Below, piece after piece: positions 45,395 through 49,469 of a stretch of 64,000 nucleotides of DNA. Source of the DNA: Kribbella flavida DSM 17836 (GTDB taxonomy: Bacteria > Actinomycetota > Actinomycetes > Propionibacteriales > Kribbellaceae). The notes beneath the pieces are model-generated. The model worked only from the letters and a program-made list of their open reading frames with translations, ran no database searches and was not told the origin of the DNA. The stretch is from NCBI RefSeq assembly GCF_000024345.1, contig NC_013729.1, positions 5,580,001 through 5,644,000 on the forward strand, given 5' to 3'. A program made the translations under genes and the position numbers. The stretch's first letter is position 1. Each line of letters starts with the position of its first letter.

Positions 45395-45503
45395 AGGAGA
45401 AGTGGCGTCAGGAAACGTGCGGTGGGCCGTCCCATCTGCGAGTCTTGACCTCGGCAACTACATGACAGACGGTGACGACGCGGTGACAACAGGGGGATGC
45501 TCG

Positions 45504-47870
45504 ATGGACGACGTGCCGAGCGACGCGGAGCTGATCGCGCGCGTGCGCACGGGCGACCTCGAGGCGTACGGCGAACTGTTCGCCCGGCACCACCAGGCGG
45601 CCGAGCGGATGGCCCGGCAGCTGGTCCCCGCCAACGACGCCGACGACCTGGCCAGCGACGCGTTCAGCAAGGTGCTCGATGCCCTGCGCAACGGTGGCGG
45701 CCCGGACGTGTCGTTCCGGGCCTACCTGCTGACCACCGTCCGGCGGGTGCACGTCGACCGGATCCGGGCCGGCCGGAAGGTGCAGACGACCGACGACATC
45801 GCGGCGTACGAGCGGGAGCCGCAGGGTTTCGACGACCCGACGGTGACCGGGTTCGAGAGCGGCGCCGCGGCGAAGGCGTTCGCGTCGCTGCCCGAGCGCT
45901 GGCAGGCCGTGCTCTGGCACACCGAGGTGGAGGGCGAGAAGCCGGCCGCCATCGCGCCCCTGCTCGGCCTGACCGCCAACGGCGTCTCCGCGCTCGCCTA
46001 CCGGGCCCGCGAGGGCCTGCGCCAGGCGTACCTGCAGCAGCACCTCGCCGACGTCGCCGGAGACCGCTGCCGCTGGACCACCGAGCGCCTCGGCGCGTAC
46101 GTCCGCGGCGGCCTGACCAAGCGCGAGAACCACAACGTCCGCGAGCACCTGGACGGCTGCGCCCAGTGCACGGCGGTCTACCTGGAGCTGGTCGAGGTCA
46201 ACAGTGCACTGCCCGCGCTGCTGGCTCCCGCCCTGCTCGGTACGGCGGGCCTCGGCTACCTGGCCGCCGCGTCCGGCGCCAAGATCGGCGTCGTCGGCTT
46301 CCTCGTCACCGGCTGGCGCAAGGCCACCGAGAACAGCACCCGCACGGCGGTCGGCGCCGGCACCGTGGTCGTCGTCGCGGTAGCGGCGGTGCTTGCCGCG
46401 CTGCAGCTCACCGGCAACGAGACGCCCCCGGCCGCGATCGAGACGCCGCCGGCCCAGCAGACGACGCAACCGCCGGCGGACCCACCGACGGTGAAGCCGC
46501 CGAGCCCGAAGCCGCCGCCGGTCCAGCCGACACAGCCGGACCCGACACAGCCCGAGCCGACGCAGCCAGACCCGACACAGCCCGACCCGACCCAATCTGA
46601 GCCAACCCAGCCGGACCCGACCACCCCGCCGACGATCCCCCCGGCCACTCCGCCGACCACACCGCCGTCGCGCACCCCGACACCGCCCGCGCCGACCACG
46701 CCGATCCTGGACGAGGGCCTGCTCACGATCGACCTGCCCACCGGCGGCGGCGCTCCCCCGATCGGCGGCGGCTCGCCGGCGTCCGGAGGCTCGGCGGCCT
46801 ACGGCGGATCGCCGGCGTCCGGCGGCTCGGCGGTGGTCGCCCGCGACGCCTCGGCCAACGGCCGGGACGCGGGTCTGCGGGCGGTGGTCACGATCAAGGT
46901 CCCGGCGAGCAACGCGCACCCGGTGGTGATCGGCATCAAGTACGGCGCCGCGCTGCGCTGGCCGCTCAGCGGCAACCCGGCCGGCTGGTCCTGCACCCGC
47001 GCCGCCGACGGCAGGAGCGGCGAGTGCACCGCGACCGACCCGCAGGCGCCGAAGAGCCTGCCGATGACCTTCACCGAGCCCACCGGCGGCACGGTCGCCG
47101 ACCGCACGTTCACCGTGTCGGGCAAGTCCGGCCGCCTGTACGACGACGACTCCGCCACCCTGACCGCTCCCCCGCGGCTCGACGAGAACCTGCTGAACGT
47201 CAGCGTCCGCAAGGCCGACCCGGACCGGCACCTCCGCACGATCACGGTGGCCCCCGGCACCGACCGCACCGCCGTCACCGTGAAGATCACCTACGGCAGC
47301 GCGCTCTCCTGGCCGGTCAAGGCGAGCCCGGCGGGCTGGAAGTGCGTCCCGGCCAGCCGCACCTGCACCGCGACCACCCCCGCCCGGCCGGCTCCGCTGC
47401 CCGCCGACTTCGCCGTACCGGACGGTGGATCCACGGCGTCGCGCTCGTACGCCGTGACCGCGACGGCCGGGCTGCTGCACGACACCGACGAGGAGACGCT
47501 GTCGCCCGCGCGGCAGGACGAGTCGCTGCTCACGATCCTCACCCCGGATCCGCACAACGACCCGAACCCGTTCGTCTACAACCGGTTCCTGAAGCTGAGC
47601 GGGGTCAGCGGCCCGGTCACGCTGGAGATCTCCTGGGGCCGCAACCTCAGCCTGGTCTCCGCGTTCGACCGCGGCTGGACCTGTTCGCGGTCCAGCGACG
47701 TCCGGCGGGCGACCTGCTCGACCGACAACTACACCAAGGCGCTGAACACCGAGTGGGCCGCCTGGCCCGGCTCCGGCACGCAGAACCAGATCACCGTCAA
47801 GGCGGTCACGCCGGGCCGCCACGACACCGACACCGCGAAGATCCCGCCCTCGGCGCACGGCCGCCGCTGA
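45504..47870 (+). CDS. ECF sigma factor fused to zinc-finger anti-sigma, membrane segment and extracellular domains
   Basis: 788 residues, ATG at 45504 with GGGGG about 8 nt upstream. Residues 1-175 form an ECF sigma factor (region 2 LEAYGELFARHHQAAERMAR, DADDLASDAFSKVLDAL; region 4 LPERWQAVLWHTEVEGEKPA, LGLTANGVSALAYRAREGLR). Residues about 190-230 have the H-x3-C-x2-C anti-sigma motif VREHLDGCAQC. A membrane helix follows near 290-310 (VGAGTVVVVAVAAVLAAL). Outside come a Pro/Thr repeat stalk (TQPDPTQPEPTQ, about 320-410) and three related beta-rich domains, about 415-780. So the transcription factor is tethered to the membrane and linked to a putative wall sensor. Release by proteolysis or conformational change would be needed. 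An ECF-type promoter precedes it. Confidence 0.88.
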   Translation: MDDVPSDAELIARVRTGDLEAYGELFARHHQAAERMARQLVPANDADDLASDAFSKVLDALRNGGGPDVSFRAYLLTTVRRVHVDRIRAGRKVQTTDDIAAYEREPQGFDDPTVTGFESGAAAKAFASLPERWQAVLWHTEVEGEKPAAIAPLLGLTANGVSALAYRAREGLRQAYLQQHLADVAGDRCRWTTERLGAYVRGGLTKRENHNVREHLDGCAQCTAVYLELVEVNSALPALLAPALLGTAGLGYLAAASGAKIGVVGFLVTGWRKATENSTRTAVGAGTVVVVAVAAVLAALQLTGNETPPAAIETPPAQQTTQPPADPPTVKPPSPKPPPVQPTQPDPTQPEPTQPDPTQPDPTQSEPTQPDPTTPPTIPPATPPTTPPSRTPTPPAPTTPILDEGLLTIDLPTGGGAPPIGGGSPASGGSAAYGGSPASGGSAVVARDASANGRDAGLRAVVTIKVPASNAHPVVIGIKYGAALRWPLSGNPAGWSCTRAADGRSGECTATDPQAPKSLPMTFTEPTGGTVADRTFTVSGKSGRLYDDDSATLTAPPRLDENLLNVSVRKADPDRHLRTITVAPGTDRTAVTVKITYGSALSWPVKASPAGWKCVPASRTCTATTPARPAPLPADFAVPDGGSTASRSYAVTATAGLLHDTDEETLSPARQDESLLTILTPDPHNDPNPFVYNRFLKLSGVSGPVTLEISWGRNLSLVSAFDRGWTCSRSSDVRRATCSTDNYTKALNTEWAAWPGSGTQNQITVKAVTPGRHDTDTAKIPPSAHGRR

Positions 47871-47910: not shown

Positions 47911-47956
47911 TGTTATCGGTTTGGTCCGGGCCGTGGCCGCGCTCTACGCTGGACGA

Positions 47957-48179
47957 GTTCGCGCTGACGGAACCGAGTAGCGCCGTTCACCTGTGGTCCA
48001 GAGAGTCGCCGGCAGCTGGGAAGGCGATCCGCAGGCCGGTCGTGAAGACACTCCCGAGCGACTGCAAGAGAAAGAGGCCGGGCTGGGTCGATCCAGGCCG
48101 GTGAAGGTGTGGTGGCACCGCGAGTTCCCCTTCGCCCACACCTCCGGGGTTCGAGACAACCGACGGAGGTGAAACAGCG
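47957..48179 (+). promoter_or_regulatory. T-box riboswitch (tRNA-Asp) controlling translation of aspS2
   Basis: Stem I: AGTA loop-E motif at 47976-47979, helix TTCAC (47986-47990)/GTGAA (48042-48046) directly followed by the specifier GAC (48047-48049, Asp), and a distal AGAGAG...GCAGCTGGGAA region (48000-48022). T-box: AGGTGTGG (48105-48112) pairs with CCACACCT (48136-48143), leaving the 7-nt bulge TGGCACC (48113-48119), whose TGGC would pair with a G-CCA tRNA end, then GCGA/TCGC. The competing helix CACCTCC (48139-48145)/GGAGGTG (48165-48171) hides the ribosome-binding site. Control is thus translational. A possible promoter is TTGGTC (47921)/TACGCT (47945), spacing 18. Confidence 0.88.
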
Positions 48180-49469
48180 ATGCGCATTCTCAACCACGAG
48201 ATCCCCTCAGCAGTGGGCCAGACCGTCACGGTGGCCGGCTGGGTGCACCGAAGACGACGGCTGGCCGCGGTCAGCTTCCTGGTGCTGCGCGACCGGTCCG
48301 GCCTCAGCCAGATCGTGGTCAAGGCGCCGGAGACCCAGGCCCAGCTGGACGGGCTCGGCGAGGAGACCGTCGTCCAGGTGACCGGCACGGTCGCCGCTAA
48401 CCCGCAGGCGCCCGGTGGGGCCGAGCTGGTCGACCCGGTGATCGTCCCGCTGACCGAACCGGCGAAGACGCCGCCGATCGAGCTGTGGCGGCCGACGGTC
48501 GGCGCCGGGCTGCCGGTGGTGCTGGACAACGCCCCGGTCGCTCTGCGGCACCCGGCGGTCCGGGCCGGCTGGGAGGTCGCCGCGGCCGCGCTGCACGGGT
48601 TCCGCAGCACGCTGGACGGTCTGGACTTCACCGAGATCCAGACGCCGAAGATCGTCGGGACGGCGACCGAGTCCGGGGCGAACGTCTTCGCGCTCGACTA
48701 CTTCGGCGGACCGGCGTACTTGGCCCAGTCGCCGCAGTTCTACAAGCAGACGATGGTCGGGGTGTTCGAGCGGGTCTACGAGGTGGGTCCGGTCTTCCGG
48801 GCCGAGCCGCACGACACCGTCCGGCATCTCGCGGAGTACGTGTCGCTCGACGCGGAGTTCGGCTTCATCGGCGACCACCGCGACGTTCTCGCCGTCCTCC
48901 GGGAGGTGCTGGCGGGCATGCTCGCCACCGTCGGGTCCAGAGCCGGTACGGCGCTGGAGCGGCTCGGCGTGGAGCTGCCGGAGATGCCCGGCGAGGTCCC
49001 GGTGCTGCACTTCACCGAGGCGCTGAAGCTGGCCGGGGCGGACCCGGACGAGCCGGACCTGTCCCCGGCGGACGAGCGGGCGATCGGCGAGTGGGCGCTG
49101 CGCGAGCACGGCAGCGACTTCGTGGCGGTCGAGGGCTACCCGATGGTGAAGCGGCCCTTCTACACGCATCCGCAGCCGTCGGACCCGCGCTGGTCGAACT
49201 CCTTCGACCTGCTGTTTCGTGGCGTCGAGTTGGTCACCGGTGGGCAGCGTCTGCACCGCTACAGCGACTACGCCGCGGCTCTGGCGGCTCGAGGCGAGTC
49301 GGCGGACGCACCGGCGTACAGCTCGTACCTGCAGGCGTTCCAGCACGGCATGCCACCGCACGGCGGCTTCGCCATCGGCCTGGAACGCTTCGTCGCCCGG
49401 CTCACGGGAGCGGAGAACGTCCGCGAGGTCACGTTGTTCCCCCGCGATCTCCACCGCCTGACTCCGTGA
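48180..49469 (+). CDS. aspS2: Archaeal-type (non-bacterial, possibly non-discriminating) aspartyl-tRNA synthetase
   Basis: 429 residues. N-terminal OB-fold anticodon domain (VTVAGWVHRRRRLAAVSFLV, about 15-34), class II motif 2 VYEVGPVFRAEPHDTVRHL near residue 200, motif 3 HGGFAIGLERFVARL near 400, and the end VTLFPRDLHRLTP. The length, the absence of the bacterial insertion domain and the AEYVSLDAEFGFI segment match archaeal/eukaryal AspRS rather than the approximately 590-residue bacterial enzyme. Such AspRS2 enzymes in bacteria often charge both tRNA-Asp and tRNA-Asn, the latter being amidated by GatCAB. An upstream T-box with an Asp specifier supports Asp. The SD GGAGGTG is 8 nt before the ATG and sequesterable. 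Confidence 0.9.
   Translation: MRILNHEIPSAVGQTVTVAGWVHRRRRLAAVSFLVLRDRSGLSQIVVKAPETQAQLDGLGEETVVQVTGTVAANPQAPGGAELVDPVIVPLTEPAKTPPIELWRPTVGAGLPVVLDNAPVALRHPAVRAGWEVAAAALHGFRSTLDGLDFTEIQTPKIVGTATESGANVFALDYFGGPAYLAQSPQFYKQTMVGVFERVYEVGPVFRAEPHDTVRHLAEYVSLDAEFGFIGDHRDVLAVLREVLAGMLATVGSRAGTALERLGVELPEMPGEVPVLHFTEALKLAGADPDEPDLSPADERAIGEWALREHGSDFVAVEGYPMVKRPFYTHPQPSDPRWSNSFDLLFRGVELVTGGQRLHRYSDYAAALAARGESADAPAYSSYLQAFQHGMPPHGGFAIGLERFVARLTGAENVREVTLFPRDLHRLTP

Follow-up and report, generated by a model that had tools for sequence, protein, structure and literature searches.

The second aspartyl-tRNA synthetase gene (aspS2) of Kribbella flavida DSM 17836 lies directly behind a leader that had been predicted to be a T-box riboswitch with an Asp specifier, which raised the question of whether this leader is a genuine T-box, which tRNA it would read and at which step it would act. 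The locus was analysed in the window, that is, the whole 64,000-nucleotide stretch of contig NC_013729.1, in which all features described below lie on the + strand.

A complete T-box leader was found at positions 47957-48179, immediately 5' of aspS2. The aspS2 transcript probably starts near 47956, as judged from a -10-like TACGCT at 47945-47950. A TANNNT sequence, which is a loose pattern, was present within 1 nt of one fixed place in all 23 Kribbella-type leaders, and no common -35 element was seen among them; at -35 distance (47921-47950 in the window) these leaders fell by eye into two types, TTGG/TTGC-like and TGAAAT-like. Stem I is full-length (47959-48061) in the alignment to the Rfam T-box model RF00230, with the base helix UCGC/GCGA and a K-turn formed by UGA (47965-47967) and GA (48056-48057), and its base, lower and upper helices covary. 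The 5' side of the specifier loop carries the loop-E AGUA (47976-47979), which was invariant in all 26 leaders of the alignment described below, and the AGAGAG of the AG-bulge/apical module (48000-48005) was invariant or at least 90% conserved there. The specifier GAC (48047-48049), followed by A48050, was likewise invariant in 26/26 leaders. Loop E, the AGAGAG module and the specifier, together with the T-box bulge and a competing helix that hides the Shine-Dalgarno (SD) sequence, had all been named in the original prediction and were recovered in place.

Downstream of stem I the leader continues with a purine-rich linker (48062-48077) and lacks stem II, a point missing from the original prediction. 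The specifier-to-T-box distances were 59-70 nt in the 23 Kribbella-type leaders and 60 nt in three Nocardioidaceae MAGs, and 92-189 nt in the remaining 21 long-type actinobacterial leaders. Stem III (48078-48101) comprises eight pairs, six of which were changed on both sides, and its flanks are purine plus AA as in T-boxes (AAAGAGG-stem III-UGAA). The T-box bulge UGGCACC (48113-48119), part of the RF00230 match, sits within the antisequestrator helix A1, whose strands GGUGUGG (48106-48112) and CCACACC (48136-48142) enclose it together with helix A2 (GCGA/UCGC plus loop, 48120-48135). The helix around the bulge had been described as 8 bp long; it is present, with 7 bp, or 8 if the flanking A-U is counted.

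A covariance search with the Rfam T-box model, proposed earlier as a check, matched the window leader from end to end (model positions 1-219) with an E-value of 1.3e-10 in Infernal, although the score of 55.8 bits is under the RF00230 gathering score of 93. No further RF00230 match was present in the 7.58-Mb one-contig genome at E ≤ 10. A second T-box was also sought with model R1, whose next match (E 0.485, 32 nt) was unconvincing, and the non-T-box Rfam matches near the leader were all below their gathering scores. When nine relatives were compared with all of Rfam, a Chloroflexi leader (L051) was alone in exceeding the gathering score (99.9 bits), five others scored 36.8-79, and three leaders with an ultrashort stem I (L026, L028 and L037) gave no T-box match at E ≤ 1. 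Across 394 genomes of the class, RF00230 matches at E ≤ 0.001 occurred in 202, none of them over the cut-off; among 30 such loci that were fetched, 17 had a reading frame with the motif EGPPTANG, which we take to mark IleRS, and one was aspS2.

To the covariance match is added the pattern of substitutions among orthologous leaders. For the alignment, the 26 leaders (of 39 listed) that have a full stem I and lack stem II were used: the 23 Kribbella-type leaders, including that of the window and L012, which is recorded as Streptomyces, and the three Nocardioidaceae MAGs. For a hand-made structure of 43 pairs in the antisequestrator form, built from the window and Rfam, 95.9% of the cells were paired, and this value fell to 34.7-43.5% when the partners were slid as a control. 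Changes on both sides were observed in 21 of the 43 pairs (shuffles, 10.2 ± 1.9) and in 74 cells (shuffles, 19.4 ± 3.7), and none of the 500 shuffles reached either value. One lower stem I pair (columns 30-91) was broken in 12 of the 26 rows, so that the lower stem I part of the model is inexact. Helices A1 and A2 were nearly constant within this set. They covaried, however, on 38 distinct rows from Actinobacteria (other architectures added), Chloroflexi and Dormibacterota, for which 43 of the 48 located rows were used (L008, L017, L040, L044 and L048 were dropped): 9 of 12 pairs and 48 cells were changed on both sides against 12.4 ± 5.4, including 4 of the 5 pairs of A2. The A1 part of this result leans towards pairing because complementarity to the 5' strand was used to place the A1 3' strand; A2 was not selected in this way. 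Covariation across homologous leaders, whose absence had been named beforehand as evidence against a T-box, is thus present in both sets. Since the leader gives a full-length RF00230 match, which is the sole match in the genome, and its orthologues carry compensatory pairs, the T-box leader before aspS2 is real, conserved and more than a product of chance.

The same data bear on the idea that the leader is a relic, kept by descent with its gene after switching had been lost. Decay does happen, as one of 21 genomes with aspS2 (G007) has a changed core, TGGCACAGCG, before an interrupted gene. In the family as a whole, however, loops and linkers vary but compensatory changes preserve pairing in the stems, and the core motifs are invariant in the 26-leader alignment, which makes a relic barely credible.

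The gene downstream (48180-49469) encodes a protein of 429 aa that was assigned to the archaeal-type AspRS, as had been predicted, by family models and a match to 1n9w. The best solved relative by sequence is the non-discriminating, archaeal-type AspRS2 of Thermus thermophilus (1n9w), the Pfam scan found no bacterial GAD domain, and the model NF003483, 'aspartate--tRNA(Asn) ligase', gave 528.1 bits against a cut-off of 353, while TIGR00458 (350.8) remained just below its cut-off of 368.4. The nearest relatives are from Kribbella (97% to Kribbella sp. ALI-6-A). The protein shares with the T. thermophilus enzyme the OB-fold His and the PGG Pro, which we take to mark a non-discriminating AspRS. 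In a scripted reading of 67 actinobacterial or Dormibacterota proteins, the His was present in 60 (Gln in two, Gly in one) and the Pro in 59; pattern misses and truncated genes account for the remainder. The aspS2 product is therefore, to judge by these residues, probably a non-discriminating AspRS. The genome contains four PF00152 genes, namely aspS2, a GAD-containing AspRS1 and, by eye, a LysRS and a LysX-like protein; gatB is present, and no AsnRS was found over the cut-off in this genome. Just upstream of the T-box lies an 822-aa ORF (45402-47870) that matches sigma-70 region 2 and, weakly, region 4; it also contains a zf-HC2 domain, and its later part is rich in proline and threonine.

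We then considered which tRNA the leader would sense. Among the tRNA genes read by ARAGORN (30 loci and 10 regions out of 52 tRNA matches) there is a single tRNA-Asp, with the anticodon GUC, G73 and an encoded CCA, so that the UGGC of the bulge complements the G73-CCA end of the very tRNA named by the GAC specifier. The agreement of the bulge base C with the discriminator of tRNA-Asp had been part of the original prediction and was borne out. Reading the specifier region as Glu (GAA), Lys (AAG), Thr (ACA) or His (CAC) was rejected, as the discriminators A73, A73, U73 and C73, respectively, are mismatched to UGGC. The tRNA-Asn and the tRNA-Arg(UCU) of this genome likewise have G73, and the Asp specificity therefore rests on the specifier frame. 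In the NAC pattern used by the script, which compares GAC with AAC, CAC and UAC only, GAC occupied this place in 54/54 non-clostridial leaders with a long or collapsed stem I, in keeping with the Asp specifier predicted. The 20 clostridial leaders differ: AAC together with UGGU was found in 15/15 of those read by script, four others show CGCAACAC by eye, and L060 is truncated at the end of its contig. In the 18 leaders with an ultrashort stem I, a hairpin at the right place carries GAC in its loop (16 by script and two, L126 and L142, by eye, since the script had chosen other hairpins there); as the script seeks UGAC or AGAC in the loop, this count shows that the hairpin exists, and other triplets could fit too.

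With these counts in hand, sensing of a different tRNA, either tRNA-Asn, as the AAC leaders of clostridial aspS2 would do, or tRNA-Arg(UCU), if the AGA of the -1 frame is read, can be weighed. The shared G73 means that the bulge base fails to separate Asp from Asn, clostridial relatives do carry AAC, and NCBIfam names the enzyme an aspartate--tRNA(Asn) ligase. Nevertheless, GAC stands in the consensus specifier frame of RF00230 and is invariant across the alignment, AAC was seen at the specifier place in none of the non-clostridial leaders read, and the loops of the ultrashort stem I forms are UGAC, which removes the AGA frame. We therefore regard recognition of another tRNA as very improbable and read the leader as specific for tRNA-Asp.

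The output of the switch was assessed from the region between the T-box and the start codon. The SD sequence GGAGGUG (48165-48171) has a 7-bp complement, CACCUCC (48139-48145), and the CACC of this arm is shared with the 3' strand of A1. Unguided RNAalifold proposed the CACCUCC/GGAGGUG helix in its consensus fold; A1 was absent from this fold and the A1 5' strand was paired with the T-box bulge, which corresponds to the closed form. The minimum-energy fold of the window leader was also the sequestrator form (-91.7 kcal/mol), again with the bulge paired to the A1 5' strand and without the canonical lower stem I, whereas the forced A1 form had -87.9 kcal/mol; these constrained folds only say that both forms are possible. 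In a duplex test on 66 T-box leaders of Actinobacteria and Dormibacterota, the SD region was set by script in 64, and the arm overlapping A1 gave a mean duplex energy of -16.0 kcal/mol with it, compared with -8.4 kcal/mol for shuffled arms. In 46/64 leaders, comprising all 23 of the Kribbella type and 23 of the 41 others, no more than 15 of 300 composition-matched shuffles equalled the duplex, which was not clearly better than shuffles in 18/64. Failures included 10 of the 11 leaders from Streptosporangiaceae or family f19, which may use another arrangement. The predicted sequestration of the SD thus has comparative support.

In the window, no U-run terminator separates the T-box from the start codon, and the script flagged none among the actinobacterial leaders. 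It did flag a U-run in 3/6 Chloroflexi and 19/20 clostridial leaders, the pattern being loose and its first hit lying inside the A2 region in five clostridial rows. By sequence, then, the leader has the features of a class II T-box: the SD-hiding helix excludes the antisequestrator, and an intrinsic terminator is absent. The leader could still be a real T-box that acts on transcription, through Rho-dependent or other early termination that follows closed translation, and not directly on ribosome binding. Three of the six Chloroflexi leaders with the same specifier have a U-run after the T-box, so that the family has a transcriptional branch, and Rho coupling would be invisible in sequence. On the other hand, the lack of a U-run terminator in the window, the absence of any flagged among the actinobacterial leaders, and the fact that the SD itself is the paired element, make this reading rather unlikely. 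Control at translation appears the best reading because the anti-Shine-Dalgarno arm overlaps the antisequestrator helix.

Taken together, the leader is very likely a tRNA-Asp-specific T-box riboswitch that acts on translation and governs a second AspRS, which is probably non-discriminating. We infer tRNA binding, the switch itself and the reserve role of aspS2 as follows. The GUC anticodon of uncharged tRNA-Asp would pair with the GAC specifier of stem I, and the GCCA end of this tRNA with the UGGC of the bulge; A1 would thereby be held, the SD would be free and aspS2 would be translated. Charged tRNA would fail to hold A1, part of the A1 3' strand would join CACCUCC, and the pairing of this arm with GGAGGUG would shut aspS2. 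AspRS1 would serve as the housekeeping enzyme under normal load, with the aspS2 product as the reserve.

A T-box before aspS2 had been expected to be unusual, and this held only in part. The gene itself is rare: in an even draw of 394 genomes from the class, the present one among them, it was detected at E ≤ 1e-90 in 21. Wherever the gene is present, however, a T-box as a rule accompanies it. The core motif was found by script upstream of aspS2 in 20 of these 21 genomes; in the 21st, G007, an RF00230 match with the changed core precedes the first part of the interrupted gene. All 21 genomes have one GAD match each, which was read as AspRS1, and none has an AsnRS over the cut-off. Thus, since all 21 carry the T-box (one of them degenerate) and all 21 keep the GAD-type AspRS1, a T-box-gated spare AspRS is a standing pairing and not a one-off. 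Similarly, among the 79 related loci in GTDB contigs taken from the best 80 of 276, the core was present upstream in 72: 45/46 in Actinobacteria (L039 being the exception), 6/6 in Chloroflexi, 1/1 in Dormibacterota, 20/23 in Bacillota and 0/3 in others. Genomes may count twice between the two sets, as L043 and L137 look like one.

In G007 (L184, contig C895), about 3 kb interrupt aspS2 roughly 95 codons into the gene; by eye they contain a helix-turn-helix protein and other small frames, and they may reflect either an insertion or a faulty assembly. Chance occurrence of the motif before any archaeal-type AspRS was rejected, TGGNACC being absent upstream of 14/14 genes of clade f38. A different archaeal-type AspRS, with KLGG instead of PGG, was seen in G182 of genus g26 (L154/L185, C1:7678606-7680192) with a full-length T-box and GAC, and its 14 f38 relatives are without the core motif. 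In G225 (L169, C45:63072-63318), a full-length T-box with UGGC and, by eye, a UCC specifier belongs to a SerRS gene (TIGR00414 over cut-off), another T-box-gated synthetase besides ileS. The first residues of the ORFs in 20 kb (G182) and 19.5 kb (G225) gave nothing obvious in the way of a resistance-cluster context.

The history of the leader was followed on a midpoint-rooted tree of 75 of 100 AspRS2 proteins, near duplicates and short ones having been dropped. The GAC group (56 rows, two without a T-box) separates at 100/100. The 14 clostridial T-box rows cluster together (97/90); with five further rows, which are without a T-box, they make up a group of 19 (100/100). Ultrashort stem I forms are found among long-stem relatives in Dactylosporangium, Nocardioides and kin, Rhodococcus-like rows, Nakamurella and two deep rows, which suggests that stem I was lost repeatedly, the number being unsure given open forks in the tree. 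In L138 (genome G068), stem I is collapsed but the K-turn is kept, and GAC lies in the loop of a four-base-pair hairpin, GGAG-CAGACA-CUCC. As a tentative proposal that we would not favour strongly, aspS2 with its Asp T-box might be a portable emergency kit, in which empty tRNA-Asp induces a spare AspRS if AspRS1 is poisoned, e.g., by an AspRS-directed antibiotic, or if Asp is short. Its output would have changed over time (a terminator in part of the Chloroflexi, an SD sequestrator in Actinobacteria) and most of stem I would have been lost more than once, with a surviving intermediate and the specifier GAC throughout.

With these leaders, the translational T-boxes of Actinobacteria, known for ileS, come to include an Asp-specific set that serves a duplicated AspRS and is mostly missed by the Rfam gathering cut-off. 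As long, collapsed and ultrashort forms of stem I, and both outputs, occur on orthologues of a single gene, its leaders form a natural series in which the loss of the elbow-binding part of a T-box and the change of its output can be studied. Why a spare AspRS should be kept behind a switch that responds to empty tRNA-Asp becomes a testable question.

Among known systems, the glyQS-type T-box of Bacillus subtilis resembles the Kribbella form in having a long stem I without stem II, but is transcriptional and reads Gly. The T-box-regulated aspS of Clostridium acetobutylicum is presumably archaeal-type, and clostridial aspS2 leaders differ from the present ones in AAC (Asn), UGGU and U-runs. According to the excerpted text, one of the three aspS genes of that species is T-box regulated, the likeness being a T-box before an extra AspRS (PMC2494555), and an extra AspRS with GatCAB is described there (PMC4206432); extra AspRS genes in Actinomycetales are also noted in the excerpt of PMC4206432, which leaves their regulation unmentioned. 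GAC is the usual Asp specifier of Asp T-boxes in TBDB (0.94; PMC7778990, in part). In the literature searched, which was covered in part, included PMC9413887, PMC3766115 and PMC7927825 and lay outside the TBDB records, we found no report of an Asp T-box on actinobacterial aspS2. The closest relatives in mechanism are the class II T-boxes of actinobacterial ileS, known as translational, which share the phylum, the SD-sequestering platform and the UGGN bulge (PMC1262725 and PMC7583486, in excerpt). They differ in their Ile specifier and their gene. In most of them stem I is of intermediate length or ultrashort, and stem II is described as essential (PMC7583486, in excerpt), in contrast to the Kribbella form, which combines a full stem I with the absence of stem II; the same excerpt mentions a few translational T-boxes with long stem I. 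Translational T-boxes, long stem I forms and the clostridial aspS T-box are thus already in print, and the Asp T-box on actinobacterial aspS2 is a well-supported further case.
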